Below are positions 2,012-11,892 of a stretch of 11,892 bases of DNA, one piece after another. A program made the position numbers and the translations under genes. Under the pieces are notes generated by a model. That model saw only the letters and a list, made by a program, of their open reading frames with translations, was not told the origin of the DNA and searched no databases. Positions within the stretch are counted from its first letter, which is position 1. The number at the start of each line of letters is the position of its first letter. The stretch is from Candidatus Micrarchaeum sp. (GTDB taxonomy: Archaea; SpSt-1190; DYHY01), in NCBI GenBank assembly GCA_020723935.1, contig DYHY01000024.1, positions 1 to 11,892 on the forward strand, in the 5' to 3' direction.

Positions 2012-3406
2012 TTACCTGACTTCCTCTATTTCTGCCTGGGCCGAGGCCTTCTTGCCGCCCTCAGCTTCCTCGAGGGTCTCCTGCCTGCCGGTCTCCTTGG
2101 CCTTGGCCTTGGCGGCCGCGGGTTCAGCAGCAGCAGCAGCCGTCGTTCCTGATGCAGGGGGCTTACAGTCCTTGCCCACGTCGCCCGGCTTCTTTGAAGA
2201 CGGCTTCTTCATCCTGACCGAAATCACTATCCCCGCCGCCGCGATTATCGCGACCACGAGGCCTATCCCACCCCCTATTGCCATGTTCTTGAGGCCCTCG
2301 CTGTTGCAGATTCCCAGCTTCGTCTCGCACCTCGTGACCTCCTTCTGGGCTTCCGCCCTCGTCGCCGAGAGGTTCCCCTCGTAGGAGGTTATGGTGGAAG
2401 ACAGGTTCGCCCTGAGGAGCGCCCGCTCGCTCCAGAGGCTGGAATTCGCCGCTTCAAGGGCTATGTTCCTCGACTGGAGCTGGAGGACCTTGATCGCCAG
2501 CTCCGACTCGTTCTGGACCGAGAGCTCCCTGTTGTCCTTGTTCGCGAGCCACTCGACCGCGGCGAGGCCGAAGGCGTCGTTGTTTATTGTCTCGTTGGCG
2601 AAATCCCGATCGAAGATGTGCGCGTCCGAGAGCATGTCGAAGTCGGAGAAGACAATCACTGCCCCTGCCCCGAAGAATGCCCGGGCAGCTATTGGGGGTT
2701 GGCTCCCGACCGGGAACGTCCCGGTCTCAGTGTAGGAGAGGTTGCTCCCAGTCGCGATGACCTTTGTCTTCCCTATTGGGGAGTTTACACGCACAGACTC
2801 GACGAAGAGCGGATGGGCCTTGTATATCCCGATCTTCCCGACACCCGACATTCTCAAGCCCTGCGCATCCGTTTTGTCGGGGAATTCGCGCACGAGCGCG
2901 TAGTATTTCTGCTCGCCAGAGGCTATCGACGTCCCCGAAGTGTTGAACGGGAAGTTCGCGGTGTCAACGATCCAGGTGCTGGACTTGTCCATGAGGATGC
3001 CGTATATCTGCCCGAGGTTGTTCACGCCGTCCGGCTCGTCGCCGTTTATCAGGAGGCCGCCGCCCTGCACGCCGACATACCACCTGAGCGCAAGTATTTC
3101 TTCGGTGTCAAGCGCCTTGTTCAGGCCCTGCATTATGACCACGTCGTATTCCTTGAGCTTCTCTTGGGTGAGCTTCACGTCCGCGCTGCTGATGCTCGCC
3201 GTCGAATAGCCCGCTCCTTGGATGAGGCCGTTGAAGCTCGTGTAGCCGCTGCCGGTTATCCTCATCGTAGCCGGGGCCTGGACCTCGTAGAAGAGGATCT
3301 TTCCTGTCGCCGCGAGGCCCGGGGATGCAAGGAAGAGGACGAGCAGGGCTGCTAGGAAGGCTGAAAACTTTGCGCAATAGACGAATGCGGGGCTTTTCGC
3401 GGCCAT
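2012..3406 (-). CDS. Exported GIFT-domain (GldG/IFT52-like) single-pass membrane protein
   Basis: A 464-residue protein. Residues 1-33 form a signal peptide (Lys near the start, hydrophobic core, cleavage near GLA-A). Residues about 34-287 look like the Rossmann-type GIFT/DUF4350 domain: strand KILFYEV, then YDVVIMQG, the glycine turn GGGLLINGDEP, and the late AVIVFSDFDMLSD followed by a WLANKDNREL helix end. Residues about 299-362 form a coiled coil with a possible disulfide pair (C360, C367). One membrane helix spans about 375-397, followed by a 67-residue Lys/Ala/Glu-rich cytoplasmic tail with an A5 run and KAKAKAK. Seven N-x-S/T sequons all precede the membrane helix. GIFT domains are usually non-enzymatic and bind other proteins or sugars; the exact role here is unknown. 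The frame opens at 3475, but that start would put the TATA-like box at 3431-3437 inside the gene and 23 residues before the signal peptide, so ATG 3406 is used. Confidence 0.8.
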   Translation of the reverse strand: MAAKSPAFVYCAKFSAFLAALLVLFLASPGLAATGKILFYEVQAPATMRITGSGYTSFNGLIQGAGYSTASISSADVKLTQEKLKEYDVVIMQGLNKALDTEEILALRWYVGVQGGGLLINGDEPDGVNNLGQIYGILMDKSSTWIVDTANFPFNTSGTSIASGEQKYYALVREFPDKTDAQGLRMSGVGKIGIYKAHPLFVESVRVNSPIGKTKVIATGSNLSYTETGTFPVGSQPPIAARAFFGAGAVIVFSDFDMLSDAHIFDRDFANETINNDAFGLAAVEWLANKDNRELSVQNESELAIKVLQLQSRNIALEAANSSLWSERALLRANLSSTITSYEGNLSATRAEAQKEVTRCETKLGICNSEGLKNMAIGGGIGLVVAIIAAAGIVISVRMKKPSSKKPGDVGKDCKPPASGTTAAAAAEPAAAKAKAKETGRQETLEEAEGGKKASAQAEIEEVR

Positions 3407-3430
3407 GGTGGCCCTCACGCGCGCATTTCG

Positions 3431-3437
3431 TATTAAA
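3431..3437 (-). promoter_or_regulatory. TATA-like box for the GIFT-domain membrane protein gene
   Basis: TTTAATA on the minus strand is centred about 28 bases before ATG 3406, giving a leaderless or nearly leaderless transcript. It is one half of a divergent promoter region (3407-3552) shared with the large glycoprotein gene. It decides the start in favour of 3406 over 3475. Confidence 0.5.
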
Positions 3438-3511
3438 TCGTTTGTCCTTGCAAGTCTGCGCGGCCCCCGTCCCATCGGCGTCGAAAATGCAACTCTTCTC
3501 GGTGAAAAAGG

Positions 3512-3518
3512 TTAAATA
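3512..3518 (+). promoter_or_regulatory. TATA-like box for the surface glycoprotein / MinD cluster
   Basis: TTAAATA, preceded by GAAAAAGG that could act as the purine-rich TFB-recognition element, is centred about 38 bases before ATG 3553. It predicts transcription from about 3540 and a leader of about 12 bases. No other convincing promoter is seen before the next two plus-strand genes, so this may drive all three. Confidence 0.5.
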
Positions 3519-3552: not shown

Positions 3553-6500
3553 ATGGGCAACGGTGGCAGGCTCCTAGCGCTCGCCTTATTCCTGGCTTTC
3601 GCCCCTTTTTTGCCAGCCGCGGCGTACGAATTCAGCCTCTCCTATCCCCAAAACGACAGCTGGACAGCCCTTGGCAACAGCAGCCTGAACTTCACCTTCA
3701 AATACAGCAATCCCGACGATTCCGGGAGCGTCTGCACCTTGTACCTCAACAACATGACGGTCGGGACCGTGAACGCCATCAACAATACGCAGACAAACGT
3801 TTCCTCCGCCGAAATCTTCTTGCAGGACAGCAATTTCTGGTTCATCGGCTGCATGAACCAGACAACCCAGAATTCCGGCAATTCGTCCCGCATGCTCTTC
3901 CACTATGACCCCGTGGCGCCCGTTCTCATCTCCCAATTTCCAGTCAACAATTTCAACTCCTCGTCCGCCAACGTCACGTTCAACATCACAACTACTGACA
4001 ACCTGAACCTCACGAGCCTGGAGCTCCTCGGCAACTGGAACACCTCCGGAATCGCCGTATGGCACGTCAACAAGACGAACTCAACGCCGTACAACAACTC
4101 CGTCTGGTCGTTCAACGTGAGTGGCATCCCCGACGGGAGGTACCTCTGGGCCGCCAGGGCGACGGACGCGGCAGGGAGCTACATCCTCTCCGCGAACTTC
4201 ACGATAACCGTTGACACTACGTCCCCGTCGATAACGCCGCTCTTCGCCAACGACACGAATTACACGAACCTCACCTTCCCGGCGTTCAGCTTCCTTGTCT
4301 CCGACGCGCTCCTCCCAGCCTCGGGCTGCACTCTGAAGATCCTGGGCGCATCGAACACTTCCCAGTACAACGTGACGGCGGCTTCAGGCTACTGCAACTT
4401 CACCTCTATCAACATGACGATGCTCCTTGAGGGCAGGCACATGATGATAATCACGGCCAACGACACGCTCGGGAACACGGCGACGAACGACTCGTTCACG
4501 ATCGGGATAGACGCGACAGCCCCAAAGTTCTCCTCCGGGATCCCGGCGAACGGAACCCTGTACCTCGGGAACGTCTCCTTCGCCCCGAGCTTCTCCGAGA
4601 CCGTTAACATGACATGGCTTGTCAACGAGACGGGCGGCAACGAGAGTAGCGCCACCGGCGTGGACTTCTTCCCAGTCAACAGTTACCGCGCCTCGGGGAG
4701 CTACCAGTGGACGATCCTCATCCGCGACTCGTCGGGGAACTCCAACTACACGACCTTCAACTTCACGGTGAACACGACGCGCCCCTACGTGAACCTCACA
4801 TACCCAGCAGACGGCTTTTCGACGAAACTCACTTCCTTCGACGTGCAGTTCAACGCCACGGACGACTCGGCTTCCCTCTCCTGCTCGGTTCTTCTGGACG
4901 GCGCTGTGAACCAGACGAACGCCAGCGTCCTAAAATACACAACCACCAATTTCACCCTCGGCAACCTGGCCTACGCGACGCACACCTGGCAAGTGTCCTG
5001 CACGAACGGGACCGCCACCGCGTACTCCGTGCCGCGCACCTTCCGCACCCAGTTCCTCGGGGTTACTTCCCAGGCGAACTCCACGATGGCCGCGTTCGGG
5101 CAGGTCCTGAACCTTTCCGCGAGCGTGCGCTCGCTCTCCGCGGGCACGAACGGGGCGTGGCTCGCCTGGTCCCTGCCCTCGGGATGGAGCGTCCTCTCCA
5201 ACTCCACGGACGCCGGGTCGATGGCAAACCAGACGAACGCGACGAATGCGACCCTCGCTTTCGGGAGCCTGTTCTGGAACAACCTAACGGTGCGCGTCGG
5301 GAACCTCTCCACCGGCCTCGTGCAGATAGCGGCGACCGCAAACTCCTCCCACGGCTTCGGGACCGTGGAGGCGGCGAACGTGACAATCTACGCCCTCTCG
5401 GCGAACGGCTCATTCTCCTCGGCAGTCAACCTGACGGAGGAACGCTCCCTCAACTTCACGTTCCAGAACAACGGCGGCGCGCAGTCCGACAACGTGACTG
5501 CCTTCAACCTGACGTTCAACCCGGAGTACTTCAACGTCACGGACGCGGCGGGGATCACATCGGGCTGGCTCTGCGACTTCACCGGCTACTACGCCAACTG
5601 CTCGGGCGCGGCCTCCCCTAGCGGCAACCTGACGATCGTCAAACTCACCCTCAAGGCCGGGATCTTGTTCGGGAACAGCACCGCCATCCTGGACCTCTTG
5701 GGAACGATGGGCTCGCGCTACAACTACACAATCGCCGCGCCGGAGATCAAGGGCGCCGGAGGCGTCTTCACCAACGTCACGGCGGTGCGCCAGGGCAATA
5801 CGAGCCTCCACATGAACCTCTCGGTGCGCAACTGGGGGATAATGTCCCTCTCCGCGTTCAACGGCACGTTCCCGACGGTCAACATAACCACCCTCAACGT
5901 CACGGGCTACGGCGGGGGCCTCACGTGCGGAAACTTGACAGGCTCCAACGTCTCCTTCAACTGCACCGGCCTGCTTTCCCCCGGGCAGACGGGCTACGTC
6001 GTCCTCCAGATCACGGCGAATGCGAACTCCCTGGGGACCTTCGCCCCCAATCTGATAGCTCACAACTCGACGGGGAAATTATTCTCCCTTGACTCGCCCA
6101 ACATCACAATCACCCAGGCGCCCATAATATCCGGGTTCGTCAACGTGCCCGCCTCAGTCTCCCTGGACTCGAACGTCACCCTGCTCGCGGGCTTCTCCAA
6201 CTGCATAAGCAACCCCGCCTGCGCCAACCTGACGAGCGTCGCCGCGACCTGGAGCGTCACGGGGACGGGCTGCCGCCTGCCCAACAACATGACGACCTAT
6301 TCCGGGATATACCTCGAATCCGGCACCTCCTACACCGTCCCGTCCCAGTCGACCTTCACCTCCAGCTCCGTCACGACCTGCAACTACACTCTCACGGTAA
6401 CCGGCGTCTCCGCCGACACAGGCACGAACTTCACGACGGTCGCGTTCACAAACTCGGTGATCATAGTCAACACGACCTCCGGGAGCACGGGCGACCCCCC

Positions 6501-7449
6501 GGGCCCGGGGCCGGTCTTCACGGAGCCCGCGATCCACCTCTCCCTCTCCCCCACTTCCGTCGTCGTCAGCAAGGGCGACCGGCGCTACGTTACGGCCACC
6601 GTGACCCTCTCGGACGCGTCGTCCCTCGCCGGGACTCTTTCGCTTGTGCAGAACTCCAGCGTCGGCTGCTGTTCCGTCTCCATTTCCCCCTCATCCTTCT
6701 CCGGGATAACCAACACGAGCTCGCGCATCTTCAACGTGACGGTGAACGTCGCGTCCACCGCGTCGGCCGGCTCCTATCCGCTCGTTCTCAAGTCCTCGAT
6801 AGGGGCCAAGAGCTCGGCCGCGACCCTGACAATAGTCGTCCAGTATCCGACGACCACAACGATTGCCGCGAACGCCACGGGCAACCAGACGGCGAACCAG
6901 ACCGGGAACGTGACCTTGCCTGGCAGCGCCACCGCCAACGGGACGATGAACCTTACGGGGAACGGGACTGTCATCTCCAACAGGACCCTTTCGGAGGCGA
7001 CGAAGCTCCTCTCCGACGTCAACAGGACGGTCCTCGCCCTGATTGCGTCGGATTCCTCCCTGAATTCGACGTACTACGCCGCCAGGATGAAGGAGGTGGA
7101 GGAGTTCCTCTCCAGCGCCGCGGCCGCCCTCGCGGCGGGTAATTCCACCGCATATGAGGACTACGTCTCCAAGGCGCGGGCGATCCTCTCCGACGTCAAG
7201 GGCCAGGTGTTCTGGAAGGGCGTAGGGAAGAACGCGCCGATCGTCGGCATCCTCCTCTTCCTCCTCCTCCTCCTCGCGGCGGTCGGGACGGGAGCGTACT
7301 ACCTGGCGCTGCGCTCCGGGAACGGGCCGCCGATAAAGATAGACGAGGTCCAGACTGTGCTGGGCGAGCTTGCCGACGAGGTCAAGGAGCCCCTCGACAA
7401 GAAGAAGACAAAGCCCGCGGAAGACGGCGGGAAGAATAAGGAGAAGTAG
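3553..7449 (+). CDS. Giant Ig-repeat surface glycoprotein, type I membrane protein
   Basis: A 1298-residue exported protein. Residues 1-24 are a signal peptide (RLLALALFLAFAPFLPAAA, then Y25). Five Ig-like beta-sandwich units follow at about 25-118, 119-220, 221-319, 320-406 and 407-501; units 2-5 each open with a D/N-x-x-x-P motif (DPVAP, DTTSP, DATAP, NTTRP). Residues about 502-990 contain further beta-sandwich regions resembling CARDB/DUF11-type domains, then a Pro/Gly linker (DPPGPGP, from 981). A domain at about 994-1099 carries an adjacent cysteine pair. A Thr/Asn-rich linker and a helical stalk (about 1141-1228) lead to a transmembrane helix (about 1230-1251, Leu-rich) and a 47-residue charged cytoplasmic tail rich in Lys/Glu. 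I count about 90 N-x-S/T sequons, all on the outer side, so heavy AglB-type N-glycosylation is expected. It resembles S-layer or adhesin-like proteins; no enzyme motif is visible. The MinD-like gene begins five bases after its stop. Confidence 0.88.
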   Translation: MGNGGRLLALALFLAFAPFLPAAAYEFSLSYPQNDSWTALGNSSLNFTFKYSNPDDSGSVCTLYLNNMTVGTVNAINNTQTNVSSAEIFLQDSNFWFIGCMNQTTQNSGNSSRMLFHYDPVAPVLISQFPVNNFNSSSANVTFNITTTDNLNLTSLELLGNWNTSGIAVWHVNKTNSTPYNNSVWSFNVSGIPDGRYLWAARATDAAGSYILSANFTITVDTTSPSITPLFANDTNYTNLTFPAFSFLVSDALLPASGCTLKILGASNTSQYNVTAASGYCNFTSINMTMLLEGRHMMIITANDTLGNTATNDSFTIGIDATAPKFSSGIPANGTLYLGNVSFAPSFSETVNMTWLVNETGGNESSATGVDFFPVNSYRASGSYQWTILIRDSSGNSNYTTFNFTVNTTRPYVNLTYPADGFSTKLTSFDVQFNATDDSASLSCSVLLDGAVNQTNASVLKYTTTNFTLGNLAYATHTWQVSCTNGTATAYSVPRTFRTQFLGVTSQANSTMAAFGQVLNLSASVRSLSAGTNGAWLAWSLPSGWSVLSNSTDAGSMANQTNATNATLAFGSLFWNNLTVRVGNLSTGLVQIAATANSSHGFGTVEAANVTIYALSANGSFSSAVNLTEERSLNFTFQNNGGAQSDNVTAFNLTFNPEYFNVTDAAGITSGWLCDFTGYYANCSGAASPSGNLTIVKLTLKAGILFGNSTAILDLLGTMGSRYNYTIAAPEIKGAGGVFTNVTAVRQGNTSLHMNLSVRNWGIMSLSAFNGTFPTVNITTLNVTGYGGGLTCGNLTGSNVSFNCTGLLSPGQTGYVVLQITANANSLGTFAPNLIAHNSTGKLFSLDSPNITITQAPIISGFVNVPASVSLDSNVTLLAGFSNCISNPACANLTSVAATWSVTGTGCRLPNNMTTYSGIYLESGTSYTVPSQSTFTSSSVTTCNYTLTVTGVSADTGTNFTTVAFTNSVIIVNTTSGSTGDPPGPGPVFTEPAIHLSLSPTSVVVSKGDRRYVTATVTLSDASSLAGTLSLVQNSSVGCCSVSISPSSFSGITNTSSRIFNVTVNVASTASAGSYPLVLKSSIGAKSSAATLTIVVQYPTTTTIAANATGNQTANQTGNVTLPGSATANGTMNLTGNGTVISNRTLSEATKLLSDVNRTVLALIASDSSLNSTYYAARMKEVEEFLSSAAAALAAGNSTAYEDYVSKARAILSDVKGQVFWKGVGKNAPIVGILLFLLLLLAAVGTGAYYLALRSGNGPPIKIDEVQTVLGELADEVKEPLDKKKTKPAEDGGKNKEK
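3625..5055 (+). repeat. Five divergent Ig-like repeat units within the surface glycoprotein
   Basis: Units begin at about 3625, 3907, 4213, 4510 and 4771 and are 87-102 residues long. The boundaries of units 2-5 are marked by short motifs of the type D/N-x-T-x-P right after an N-F-T-hydrophobic strand ending. The DNA itself is not obviously repeated, so the duplication is old and visible only at protein level. Tandem Ig-like units of this sort usually build an extended rod projecting from the cell. Confidence 0.6.
7439..7443 (+). promoter_or_regulatory. Candidate ribosome-binding site for the MinD-like gene
   Basis: AGGAG, inside the last codons of the glycoprotein gene, lies 11 bases before the GTG at 7455. 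The spacing is slightly long but workable. Together with the five-base gap it suggests translational coupling. It supports GTG as the start, since no in-frame ATG lies before the P-loop. Confidence 0.4.
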
Positions 7450-7454
7450 GCGAA

Positions 7455-8441
7455 GTGAAACCAACGGGCAAGGCGAAGGCACCTGCGACGGCGGCTCCGG
7501 TCAGGGAGGCAAGAATAATCTCGTTCGTATCCGGAAAGGGGGGCGTCGGCAAGACCACCATCGTCTCGAACCTGGGAGTCATCCTCGCAAGCGAGTTCAA
7601 GAAAAGGGTCCTCCTCATCGACGGGAACATAAGCACCGCGAACCTCGGGATACACCTCGGCTTCATCAAGTCCCCTGTCTCCATCCAGGACCTCATCGAC
7701 GACACGATAAAGACCTACCAGGCGGTCTACGTGCACCGCTCAGGCCTGCACATAATACCCGCGTCCCTGTCCCTGGAGCACGAGCAGCACGACTACGGCG
7801 CGCACCTCCTAGCCAAGCGCTTCATCAAGATAATATCCGACATCAGCCACGAGTACGACTTCATCCTGATAGACGGGGCGGCCGGGATAAGCGGCGAGGC
7901 CAAGGCCGCGGTCGCCGCAAGCGACGAGGTCGTGGTGATAACAGTACCGGAGATCCCGACCGTGACCGCGGCCGTCAAGGTCGTGGAGGTTGCCCACCTC
8001 CTAGAGGTCCCGGTGGCGGGCCTCGTCGTCAACAGGGTCCGGCGGAACAAGACGGCCGACCTCCCGCTCCCGGAGATAGAGAAGGCGTGCGGCGTCCCGA
8101 TACTTGCCACCATCCCCGAGGACGAGGCGGTCAGGGAGAGCACGGCGATGCGGGACCCCGTGTGCTCGTGCAGGCCGCGCTCCCACGCTTCCGGCTCGCT
8201 ACGCAGGCTGGCCGCCAGGATGGCGGGCGCGGAGGACGAGGGCAGGAAATCGGCCGGAGTGTTTGAAAGGCTTAAAATACAGTTCTTCCCTGAGAAGGGC
8301 ACCGGCGGGGGCCGCAAGGCCGAAACGGTCGCAAAGGCGCAGGCCCCCGGGACGAAGTTCGTCCTGGTGCTGGCATCCCCCGCTCCCGCGGAGGCGCCCG
8401 GGAGAAGGGACGGCAAGGGCGGCAAGCAGCAGGCGAAATGA
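7455..8441 (+). CDS. MinD/ParA-family deviant Walker A ATPase
   Basis: A 328-residue cytoplasmic P-loop ATPase starting with GTG. The deviant Walker A motif GKGGVGKTT is at residues 27-35, with signature lysine K28 and P-loop lysine K33. Switch I reads LLIDGNISTANLG (53-65), in which the second Asp of the usual D-x-D is Asn58. Switch II/Walker B reads YDFILIDGAAGI (134-145). NRV at 193-195 and IPEDEAVREST (220-230) match the MinD pattern, and the length suits MinD plus a tail. MinD-type proteins dimerise on the membrane when ATP-bound and position other complexes; archaeal paralogues place archaella and chemoreceptor arrays. Residues about 268-281 (GVFERLKIQFFPEK) look like a short amphipathic membrane-binding helix, followed by an unusual Gly/Ala/Lys-rich tail of about 47 residues. 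No minE or chemotaxis gene is in view. Lying between two giant surface glycoproteins, it is most simply read as part of their system. Exact subfamily uncertain. Confidence 0.9.
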   Translation: MKPTGKAKAPATAAPVREARIISFVSGKGGVGKTTIVSNLGVILASEFKKRVLLIDGNISTANLGIHLGFIKSPVSIQDLIDDTIKTYQAVYVHRSGLHIIPASLSLEHEQHDYGAHLLAKRFIKIISDISHEYDFILIDGAAGISGEAKAAVAASDEVVVITVPEIPTVTAAVKVVEVAHLLEVPVAGLVVNRVRRNKTADLPLPEIEKACGVPILATIPEDEAVRESTAMRDPVCSCRPRSHASGSLRRLAARMAGAEDEGRKSAGVFERLKIQFFPEKGTGGGRKAETVAKAQAPGTKFVLVLASPAPAEAPGRRDGKGGKQQAK

Positions 8442-8472
8442 GGATGACGTAAAGACGGACACTGCGAAGAGG

Positions 8473-11400
8473 ATGACGACGGCGACGCTTCGGCATCGCG
8501 GTAGCCCGGCTCTCGCAGCGGCGGCAGCCCTCGTCCTCGCAATCCTGCTCCTCCCTGCATTCCCGGCGGACCCGGACATTGTGGCGGGGAACGCGACTTT
8601 CTTCTACGCGAACGGCACGCCCAGGCAGGCTGTCCAGGGCGTAATCATGGACCGCCTCCTCGTCCACTTCCACTTCAACAGCTCCTTCCCCGGGAACCTC
8701 TCGGCGATACTCCTGGATTCCTCCGAGTACGTCCTTCCCGCCAGCTACAGCTGCGCCAACTGGAACCTGTGGGGCCTTTCCCCTTCCGCATCCCCGGCGA
8801 CGAACTCAAGCTACACACATCCGGTGTCCTTCGACTGGCAGGGCCTCTCGAACGGGACGGGCCTTGTCCGCTGCGATATGACGAGCCTCGGATGGTCCAA
8901 CGGGACGGACGTCGGGGCGCTCTGGAACTTCCCGGCCGGCTACCCGGTCTCGACGGCAGGCTTCAACAGCACCGTCTTCTCCTACTCACCCCGCTTCTTC
9001 CTAGAAATCCACAATTTCCACATATCCCCTGCCTTCCCGCCGGCGAACCGGACAGTCAGCCTGGGGGTCTTGGGGATTTTCGTGCTCGACAACTTCACGG
9101 TCGTCTACACGCCTCAGGCGACCTACCAGCTGACAGTCCCCTTCCCGAGGCCCGTCTCCTCCGCCCACCCGCTCGTCCCCCAGCAGGCCAACTTCAGCGC
9201 CGGGCAGAACGTCTCCCTTTTCAGGGTGCCGATCGCCAGCGCGTACGGGAACGTCTCCTTCAACGTGAGCCGCATCGCCATAAGGCTCTCTTCTCCTGAC
9301 GTGTCTAGGGTCGATGTCTACAATTCCAACAATATGACAATCCCCCTCGGCACCAATTCGTCCCTCTTCAACAGGACGTACGTCCTCGTGGCCGTCGGGA
9401 ACTCCAGCGTCTTCGACATCACAGTCGCGGCGACCCTCGCATCCGCCCCTTCGGCAAACGCCTCCGCGTACGGCCTCAACGCGACCCTCAACACTTCGGA
9501 GATAGAATACTATGCGGGCCTTTCGGCGACAGGCGGGGTTCCTGTCTTGATCCAGACCTCCGACCTCAACTCGACCGTCTCGACGTCCAGGGTCGGCTTC
9601 CACTCGATGTCATTCTCGTCCAGCCTTTCCCAGGAGCCCGTCCTCTTCACGCGCAGCCAGGGCAGGGCGTTCAACTTCACGCTCAATTCGACCGGCCAGG
9701 ACCCCTTCGCGTACGTCGAGGTGGTCCCGCAGGCGTCCGGATACGCGCTTAACAACCTCTCCGTCTGGATGCCCGCCGCCGGGAACGCCTCCGCGTCTTG
9801 GACCTGCTTCAGGAATTCCACCGCCCTCGGGACTTGCTGGGGCTGGTGGAACCCGGGCGATTCGGCGGTCGTCCAGGTCAACGCGACGGCGCCCGCATCC
9901 TCTGGGAACTTCAGCTGGACCGTGCGCGCGTACAACACCCAAGGGGCACCCTACGTCAACGCATCCGCCTTCAACACGACCTCCCAGTCCGCGCCCGCCC
10001 TCAACGTCACGGTGCAGACCGCCCTCCCGGGCAACATCACAGGGGGCCAGAGCGCGGTGCAGGTGGTGTTCCTCCTCAACAACTCCGGCGAAGCCGCGGC
10101 AGCCAACGTCTACCCCAACGTGTCCGTGGCGTATTCCAACTCGTCGATCGCGAACATAACGATGACCTCCTCGTTCTCGCCCCAGTCCGTCGCCGGCAAC
10201 TCGACGGCGTCTTACACTGTGACCTTCAACACCCCGGCGAACCTCTCGAGCGGCAACATAACGGTGACCTTCAACGTCACCGGCCAGGACGCGAACTCCG
10301 GTGCGAACGTCACGAGCAGCACGGCGTCGTCAGCGGCTTTCGTCGTGCAGGGCGCATCTGTCCAGATAGCTTACCTGACGCTGGACAAGGCGACGGCGTA
10401 CTCCTCGGGGAATTTCACCCTCGCGGTCGCGGTGTTCAACCCGGGATCAACCGTGCTCCAGGGAATAACCTATGCCCTCTCGCCCTCCGCCGCGATAGGC
10501 CTCTCCGCCGCGACGGTCTCCCCGCCCGTCGCCAACGGCTCCTCGTTCTCCAACTTCAGCTTCGCCGTGTTCGTCGCCTCCGGGGCGCAGGCCGGGACCT
10601 ACCAGGTCAACCTGACCGTGACGGGCAAGGATTCGGTATCCGGCGCCGCCATCTCGGCGACGGCGGACTTCAACATAACAATAGAGAACCTCTACGCGAT
10701 ATCCGTCGCCCCCGACAACATAACGGGCGCCGAGGCGGGGAAGAACGTCACATTCACCCTGACGGTAAGCGCCAAGGACGGCGTCCTGCACCGGAACGTC
10801 GCGCCCCTGTTCACGAACACCTCCTCCTGCTGCTCCTTCTCGTACGGCGGGGCGCAGAACGTCTCCGCGGACTCGGCAGTGTTCTCAGTCGTCCTCTCGC
10901 CCTACGAGAACATGACGGCGAACAGGACCGTGCGCATGGTGTACGTACAGGTCGCCTCCTCCGACGGCTCGGTTTCGGAGAAGAGGCTCGTGACGATCGA
11001 GGCGCTGCCGCGCGTCTTCTGCGGCGACGTCGGGCAGGCCTGCTGCCCCGGGAGCCCCAAGTGCAACGAGGGAGGACTCTGCTGTAGCAACCTCTGCAGG
11101 CAGGTCGCGACGGGCAAGTGCTGCCAGGACACCTGGAAGATAGCCGCCATCTGCTGCGCCGACTCGGAGTGCTCTGGCGGCAACGTCTGCTACGCGGCGA
11201 ACAACACGTGCGGGCCAAAGCCCCTCACCTCCGATGACCTGAACTCCCAGATATCCGAGATCCAGAAGAGGATCGACGCGCTCAAGCAGGCCATAGAGGA
11301 GGCGAGGCAGAGCCACAAGGCCGTCGGAACCGCCCTCACGTTCCTGGACACCGCCGAGCTCAAAGCCAAGCAGGCCGGGATACTTGTGTCCCAAAACAAG

Positions 11401-11892
11401 CTCCCCGACGCCAAGACGATGATAGACGAGGTGAACGACCTCCTTTCCAAGACGGACGACGCGATAACCGCCGCTCCGGAGGATTCTGGCGGAGGCCTCC
11501 TCCTGCCAATAATATTCATCGCGGTGGTGTTCCTGGGCTTCGGGGCCGCGGGCTACTACTACATGCAGAAGGGCAAGTCCTCCTTCCCGGCGCAGGGGCA
11601 GGGGCAGGGGCAGCAGCATACGCCCATGGGCCCGCCCGGAACCGGAAAGCCCTCAGGCCCTCCCGGCAGATACCCGGGCGGGTTCCCGGGCCAGGCCCCT
11701 TCATTCGGCTTCAACCCTGCCCAGAGGCAGCAACATTTCCCCGGCGCCCAGAAGCCACCCCAGCAACAGCAGGCTTATTATCCGCCGACTTCATACTACC
11801 AGATGAGGGGGCTTGCCCCGGTGCAGCAGAACTGGGGATCTTGGAAGATGCCCCGGGGGCAGCAACAACAACAGCAACAACAACAGCAACAA
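8473..11892 (+). CDS. Second giant surface glycoprotein with Cys-rich module and polyQ cytoplasmic tail (3' partial)
   Basis: The frame stays open for 1140 codons to the last base with no stop, so the C-terminus is missing. Residues 1-32 are a signal peptide (Arg/His-rich start, Ala/Leu core, cleavage after AFPA). A long beta-rich ectodomain follows, including two related beta-sandwich repeats (about 507-626 and 627-738) and a domain with a vicinal cysteine pair (about 741-846). Residues 850-913 hold 14 cysteines including four CC doublets, probably a disulfide knot. Residues about 917-1000 form a charged helical stalk, about 1009-1030 a transmembrane helix (LLLPIIFIAVVFLGFG), and the rest a Q/G/P/Y-rich cytoplasmic tail ending in 11 glutamines. 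About 54 N-x-S/T sequons lie before the stalk and none after the membrane helix. ATG 8473 is chosen because the signal peptide begins there; no earlier in-frame start follows the MinD-like stop, 31 bases upstream. No good Shine-Dalgarno site is seen. Likely a surface or adhesion protein co-transcribed with the MinD-like gene. Confidence 0.88.
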   Translation, partial: MTTATLRHRGSPALAAAAALVLAILLLPAFPADPDIVAGNATFFYANGTPRQAVQGVIMDRLLVHFHFNSSFPGNLSAILLDSSEYVLPASYSCANWNLWGLSPSASPATNSSYTHPVSFDWQGLSNGTGLVRCDMTSLGWSNGTDVGALWNFPAGYPVSTAGFNSTVFSYSPRFFLEIHNFHISPAFPPANRTVSLGVLGIFVLDNFTVVYTPQATYQLTVPFPRPVSSAHPLVPQQANFSAGQNVSLFRVPIASAYGNVSFNVSRIAIRLSSPDVSRVDVYNSNNMTIPLGTNSSLFNRTYVLVAVGNSSVFDITVAATLASAPSANASAYGLNATLNTSEIEYYAGLSATGGVPVLIQTSDLNSTVSTSRVGFHSMSFSSSLSQEPVLFTRSQGRAFNFTLNSTGQDPFAYVEVVPQASGYALNNLSVWMPAAGNASASWTCFRNSTALGTCWGWWNPGDSAVVQVNATAPASSGNFSWTVRAYNTQGAPYVNASAFNTTSQSAPALNVTVQTALPGNITGGQSAVQVVFLLNNSGEAAAANVYPNVSVAYSNSSIANITMTSSFSPQSVAGNSTASYTVTFNTPANLSSGNITVTFNVTGQDANSGANVTSSTASSAAFVVQGASVQIAYLTLDKATAYSSGNFTLAVAVFNPGSTVLQGITYALSPSAAIGLSAATVSPPVANGSSFSNFSFAVFVASGAQAGTYQVNLTVTGKDSVSGAAISATADFNITIENLYAISVAPDNITGAEAGKNVTFTLTVSAKDGVLHRNVAPLFTNTSSCCSFSYGGAQNVSADSAVFSVVLSPYENMTANRTVRMVYVQVASSDGSVSEKRLVTIEALPRVFCGDVGQACCPGSPKCNEGGLCCSNLCRQVATGKCCQDTWKIAAICCADSECSGGNVCYAANNTCGPKPLTSDDLNSQISEIQKRIDALKQAIEEARQSHKAVGTALTFLDTAELKAKQAGILVSQNKLPDAKTMIDEVNDLLSKTDDAITAAPEDSGGGLLLPIIFIAVVFLGFGAAGYYYMQKGKSSFPAQGQGQGQQHTPMGPPGTGKPSGPPGRYPGGFPGQAPSFGFNPAQRQQHFPGAQKPPQQQQAYYPPTSYYQMRGLAPVQQNWGSWKMPRGQQQQQQQQQQQ
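9991..10686 (+). repeat. Two tandem beta-sandwich repeats in the second glycoprotein
   Basis: Units at 9991-10350 and 10351-10686 (about 120 and 112 residues) share a layout and a closing motif. The first ends FNVTGQDANSGANVTSSTA and the second NLTVTGKDSVSGAAISATA, that is, VTG-x-D followed by SGA and TA. They resemble CARDB/NEW3-type domains, which often form stalks in archaeal surface proteins. The relation rests on visual alignment. Confidence 0.5.
11860..11892 (+). repeat. CAA/CAG run encoding polyglutamine at the window edge
   Basis: Eleven consecutive Gln codons (CAG CAA CAA CAA CAG CAA CAA CAA CAG CAA CAA) run to the final base. The interruption of CAA by CAG every fourth codon gives a 12-base period. 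A related low-complexity patch of three CAGGGG units (QGQGQG) lies at 11593-11610. Such repeats can vary in length by slippage and can also stop a short-read assembly. Confidence 0.85.

Follow-up and report, generated by a model that had tools for sequence, protein, structure and literature searches.

An archaeal MinD-type ATPase is encoded between two giant single-pass surface glycoproteins, and we propose, with confidence a little better than even, that it is their dedicated cytoplasmic partner, clustering, placing or assembling them. MinD/ParA ATPases are known for positioning the division apparatus, flagella, pili, arrays and archaella. The window analysed here is the entire contig C46 (11,892 nt) of an archaeal genome, G000 (1.14 Mb, 91% complete, 47 contigs), from what we infer to be a DPANN-type group, and because it is a complete contig nothing is visible to the right of position 11892. 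Genes were called mechanically from open reading frames (Table 1), and the phylum was sampled with ten genomes, G001 being the only one of the same family as G000.

Table 1 Genes and candidate promoter elements in the window
Feature	Coordinates	Strand	Details
Divergent 487-aa protein with signal peptide, TM segment and tail	2012–3475	−	ORF and hydropathy
TATA-like box GTTAAATA	3511–3518	+	Differs from TTTAWATA at one position; the glycoprotein 1 ATG follows about 35 bp downstream
Surface glycoprotein 1 gene (P0001)	3553–7449	+	ORF, ATG start, 1298 aa
MinD-type ATPase gene	7455–8441	+	ORF, GTG start, 328 aa
Second TATA-like box TTAAAATA	8272–8279	+	Within the end of minD; 200 bp upstream of glycoprotein 2
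Surface glycoprotein 2 gene (P0003)	8473–11892	+	ATG start, open at contig end, at least 1140 aa

The order and sizes of the three genes on one strand agree with the first-pass annotation of this DNA, as do the gaps of 5 bases between the glycoprotein 1 stop codon and the minD start and of 31 bases between the minD stop and the glycoprotein 2 ATG. Real coding is supported for all three by a GC3 of 0.86–0.88. That annotation had also described one clear promoter. The TATA-like box ahead of glycoprotein 1 stands, but it is mismatched, it is matched equally well by the rival box at 8272, and the window's total of three boxes of this quality does not exceed chance, since three or more also arose in 29 of 200 shuffles. 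The internal box TTAAAATA could drive glycoprotein 2 on its own, or it may be a chance occurrence. As an equally good box lies inside minD, a single transcript over the three genes is only plausible. The divergent 487-aa gene shares a 77-bp intergenic region with the glycoprotein 1 gene and may belong to this surface locus as well; Pfam gives its product weak ThuA and ABC_transp_aux matches and nothing more, and the ectodomain may be ThuA- or amidotransferase-like. Further left on the minus strand (785–1966) lies a PD-(D/E)XK nuclease gene with weak similarity to Cas4, the Cas4 models scoring well below cut-off.

The ATPase is an archaeal MinD by family score and fold, as its first description as MinD-like had it. 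It scores 209.8 bits against TIGR01969 (minD_arch; cut-off 201.75), carries the deviant Walker A motif SGKGGVGKTT with the signature and Walker lysines K28 and K33 conserved, and retains both main aspartates, D56 in switch I (D56-G-N58) and D140 in switch II. The core of the AF2 model has pLDDT above 90, and the best PDB match in a fold search was the MinD of P. furiosus (1g3q, E 3.5e-22). At the C terminus the model predicts, at low confidence, a short helix (269–276) followed by a disordered extension; the hydrophobic moment of this low-confidence helix is 0.63, against a 95th percentile of 0.55 for the MinD core. The bacterial prototype has an acidic residue as the second of its switch-I positions (E. 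coli D40), which the archaeal family model does not demand. The window protein has Asn58 there, which is non-discriminating because Asn is common among surveyed archaeal MinDs (43 of 81, with Asp in 31 of 81); for the same reason we rejected Asn as a mark of surface-linked MinDs. With Asn at this position, many of the surveyed MinDs may have a changed ATPase activity.

A tailed membrane protein beside a P-loop ATPase also recalls the layout of CapA–CapB, in which a membrane tail activates a MinD-related tyrosine kinase, and the window MinD does give weak eps_fam and EpsG matches. Such a switch is nevertheless highly improbable here: the eps_fam score is 27.5 bits against 209.8 for minD_arch, the D-x-D-x-R motif (the Walker A′ of BY-kinases) is absent, the sequence being LLIDGNISTANLG (LLIDGNIST), and the C-terminal extension contains no Tyr and so no tyrosine cluster.

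Hydropathy places an N-terminal signal peptide, a single C-terminal TM segment and a cytoplasmic tail in both large proteins, bearing out the earlier view of them as single-pass glycoproteins with tails on the cytoplasmic side. In glycoprotein 1 the TM segment spans residues 1230–1248 and is preceded by juxtamembrane helices and followed by a charged tail of 50 aa. In glycoprotein 2 a Cys-rich segment and a helical juxtamembrane stalk lead to the TM segment (1019–1037, P0003 numbering), and the tail of at least 114 aa is rich in P, G, Q and Y (window 11593–11892) and closes on a CAA/CAG poly-Q run exactly at the contig end, which is probably where the assembly broke. Sequons number about three times the shuffled expectation in both, with 92 in glycoprotein 1 (30.9 ± 4.6 expected, 1000 shuffles) and 54 in glycoprotein 2 (15.1 ± 3.3 expected from shuffles). 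Pfam recognised an Ig-like Big_13 ectodomain in glycoprotein 1 and matched little else in either protein. We do not retain the labels ‘adhesin’ and ‘stalk’ that had been attached to the complex, Ig-like ectodomains being all that spoke for them. A juxtamembrane stalk common to all surface partners was likewise considered and dropped, glycoprotein 2 matching at E 0.064 and glycoprotein 1 remaining unmatched.

Among 394 sampled genomes, the closest MinD to that of the window is encoded in G001 (contig C63; 50% identity). It starts 14 bp after the gene for a 581-aa protein with signal peptide, TM segment and tail, to which the C-terminal part of glycoprotein 1 is homologous across stalk, TM segment and tail (23% identity over 445 aa; E 1e-5 pairwise, 2e-4 in a 16-protein set). 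A secreted protein follows 61 bp downstream and is itself cut by the contig end; no homology to glycoprotein 2 was detected in the 140 aa available. The first-pass annotation had named a separation of minD from the glycoproteins in relatives as what would undo the functional link; in this one ortholog locus (n = 1) minD instead lies directly behind a homologous surface protein.

The earlier call to look for the same arrangement in related genomes was borne out more widely: independent pairs of a MinD and a surface protein recur across DPANN-type archaea. We surveyed seventy-odd MinD neighbourhoods with a simple hydropathy classifier. A protein with signal peptide and C-terminal TM segment lay directly upstream of 9 of the 43 MinDs with a codirectional neighbour and of 7 of 344 random genes, drawn from random regions of related genomes (odds ratio 12.7, p 7e-6, kinship between genomes ignored), a roughly tenfold excess of surface-anchored neighbours at MinDs over random genes. 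Surface-paired MinDs are scattered in the MinD tree (minimum 7 changes), falling in the window family, in L199/L202, in L176/L196 and in a set made up of L045 (an Aenigmatarchaeota MAG), L183 and L181. In these last three loci, small secreted proteins, a 245–298 aa membrane protein, MinD and a 750–850 aa surface protein are encoded in a common operon, which is conserved across several archaeal families and kept in Nanohaloarchaeal-type genomes with minD flipped but still adjacent. When the large surface protein of this operon was used alone as query, strong homologs were found in 20 of 197 genomes, and a MinD lay within 1.5 kb in 14 of these 20 (11 of 17 with the seed genomes removed), against the 2% or so that we roughly estimate for each genome by chance from five MinDs in 1.1 Mb. 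Over the wider set with this operon (L045, L183, L181, L194/L049 and the 14 reverse-search genomes) the surface protein measures 750–890 aa, and a protein with two Ig-like domains, signal peptide and TM segment, and small TM proteins, also occur. TasA- or bundling-pilus-like subunits in the six-gene operon of L045/L183 were considered, from conserved C-terminal strands seen by eye, and rejected, the AF2 model having pLDDT 53.5 and the fold search giving nothing significant. Together, the conserved pairing in G001 and the recurrent pairs support a functional link between MinD and surface proteins.

Pairing is not general to MinD. Of the 17 nearest MinDs examined outside the family, none has such a surface neighbour, all standing beside unrelated genes, and most MinDs of the sister family in the same phylum likewise lack one; pairing is therefore a trait of certain MinD lineages, that is, paralog-specific. 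These unpaired MinDs, and the abundance of MinDs in such genomes, would also suit an ATPase with a general part in cell organisation, division or partition that lies between two surface genes by accident. We regard this as improbable in view of the pairing conserved in G001, the recurrence of pairs elsewhere and the strong reverse test; moreover, G000 retains a separate, apparently solitary MinD on contig C27, which groups with those of G001:C57 and G003:C117 in the MinD tree.

Four of the five MinD genes of G000 lie in surface-protein or pilus loci, on C46, on C29 (a tandem pair) and on C16. At C29 (L034, 183–10890) the gene for a 1514-aa surface protein is followed by two for MinDs, the first MinD having 444 aa and a long extension at its C terminus; G001:C49 (L038, 9192–16721) has the same order together with a HerA-like ATPase–ectodomain fusion and a coiled-coil protein. 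HerA/FtsK-like ATPases fused to a surface ectodomain and TM segment occur beside two MinD loci (L038, 14622–16721; L177, 6721–10800). In the C29 and C49 loci, a 46-aa helical hairpin turns up in three kinds of protein, in the tail of the surface protein, in the coiled-coil protein and in the extension of MinD: an HMM built from the coiled-coil partner copies alone recovered both MinD extensions (E 1e-9 and 1.4e-7) and both surface tails (E 3e-5 and 7e-4). In six-frame searches, the hairpins of G000 lay within or close to the MinD locus of C29, apart from one in a coiled-coil protein by the C16 minD, and those of G001 at C49 only; SHOCT (PF09851) matched one copy weakly, below cut-off. This distribution suggests that the C29/C49 surface tail, coiled coil and MinD are parts of a single assembly. 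The HMM found no match in the window's own tails or MinD, and the sequence evidence for a connection between tail and MinD thus comes from the paralogous C29/C49 locus only.

The MinD gene of C16 (L035, 6240–16000) stands in a type IV pilus-like locus with T2SSE, two T2SSF and pilin-like genes; two of the latter (8671–9153 and 9401–9883) have identical ends and are apparently near-identical copies. The window MinD is similar in part to CpaE/TadZ of Tad pili, a MinD-family ATPase encoded with the surface structure that it serves (PMC13170226); a predicted C-terminal amphipathic helix would be a further parallel, that of the window MinD being a low-confidence prediction. The window protein differs in lacking a REC domain, with just 18 residues preceding the ATPase domain, and motor ATPase, platform and pilins, present near the C16 minD, are absent from the window. 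In a role suggested to some extent for CpaE/TadZ of Tad pili, MinD could be coupled to the surface proteins as an assembly or export factor acting on their assembly, stability or exposure and not on their position. The neighbourhood evidence (9 of 43 versus 7 of 344; 14 of 20 in the reverse search) would fit this equally, CpaE, which belongs to the MinD family, is ubiquitous in Tad systems and is modelled as touching the motor (PMC13170226), and C16 supplies a MinD in a pilus locus with T2SSE/T2SSF within the same genome. We nonetheless consider it rather unlikely, given that the window contig holds no motor ATPase, platform protein or pilin genes and that partner proteins of the six-gene operon of L045/L183 were not found in G000 in a search run without a positive control.

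Other known systems are similar in part. Haloferax volcanii MinD4 and MinD2 share with the window protein the archaeal MinD family and, if its predicted role is right, a function outside division and the organising of surface or polar structures from the inner face, and the earlier statement that archaeal MinD paralogues position archaella and chemosensory arrays matches what is reported of them (PMC11588486). Their reported cargo differs, being motility and chemosensory machinery (Nussbaum 2020, cited in PMC11588486); the operon partner discussed for MinD2 in PMC11588486 is HVO_0596, and not a giant single-pass glycoprotein, whereas the candidate cargo of the window MinD is encoded on both sides of it. 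FlhG/FleN, which organises a surface organelle, is one of the solved structures that match best once archaeal MinDs are set aside, but the window has no flagellar partner and its MinD is nearer archaeal MinD in sequence. The archaeal Ted locus (PMC9905601) places a MinD/ParA (VirC1-like) gene in a surface-appendage locus with HerA, and the paralogous G001:C49 and G023 loci also contain a HerA-like ATPase; there, however, HerA is fused to an ectodomain, and no channel protein, VirB4-like ATPase or TedC-type pilin of Ted/Ced kind was recognised in the window. The window protein is best read as a putative MinD-type spatial organiser or assembly ATPase dedicated to surface proteins, like TadZ/CpaE or MinD4 but without pilus or archaellum. 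The open-access papers that we searched contained no description of such a pairing between a MinD and surface glycoproteins.

With ATP, MinD-family ATPases form dimers, and it is in this state that they bind the membrane and their partner. In the reading that we favour, a dedicated partner of both glycoproteins, the three genes would form one functional surface locus. MinD would dimerise with ATP at the inner face of the membrane, binding it through the predicted C-terminal helix, and the dimer would engage the cytoplasmic tail or tails of the glycoproteins. In this way the surface proteins would be gathered into clusters, positioned or assembled at selected sites, and ATP hydrolysis would recycle MinD. 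There are precedents for such an output: MinDE gradients can pattern and distribute membrane proteins in vitro, as reported in PMC6158289, and archaella and chemosensory arrays owe their placement in Haloferax to MinD4 and MinD2, as summarised in PMC11588486. Against this reading stand the unpaired MinDs, both the 17 nearest outside the family and most of the sister family, the hairpin undetected in the window proteins, the one ortholog locus, whose downstream protein showed no homology to glycoprotein 2 in its 140 aa, and the possible internal promoter. The first-pass annotation had suggested that the MinD organises a surface complex through the tails; its functional link to surface proteins is supported, by G001 and by recurrence, but the placing of a ‘stalk complex’ through the tails stays conjectural.

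More broadly, and only tentatively, DPANN-type archaea may possess a MinD family whose members are each operon-paired with their own single-pass surface proteins, as a general means of patterning the surface from the inside out, with the shared tail hairpin joining MinD to its partners in one locus type. If true, such patterning could determine, among other things, where the cell makes contact with a host or neighbour. If MinD is wired by operon to single-pass surface glycoproteins, the spatial control exerted by this family would extend to the surface coat. The recurring gene pairs offer defined MinD–tail combinations for binding tests, and this reading would give a testable handle on surface-protein siting in small, often host-attached archaea.
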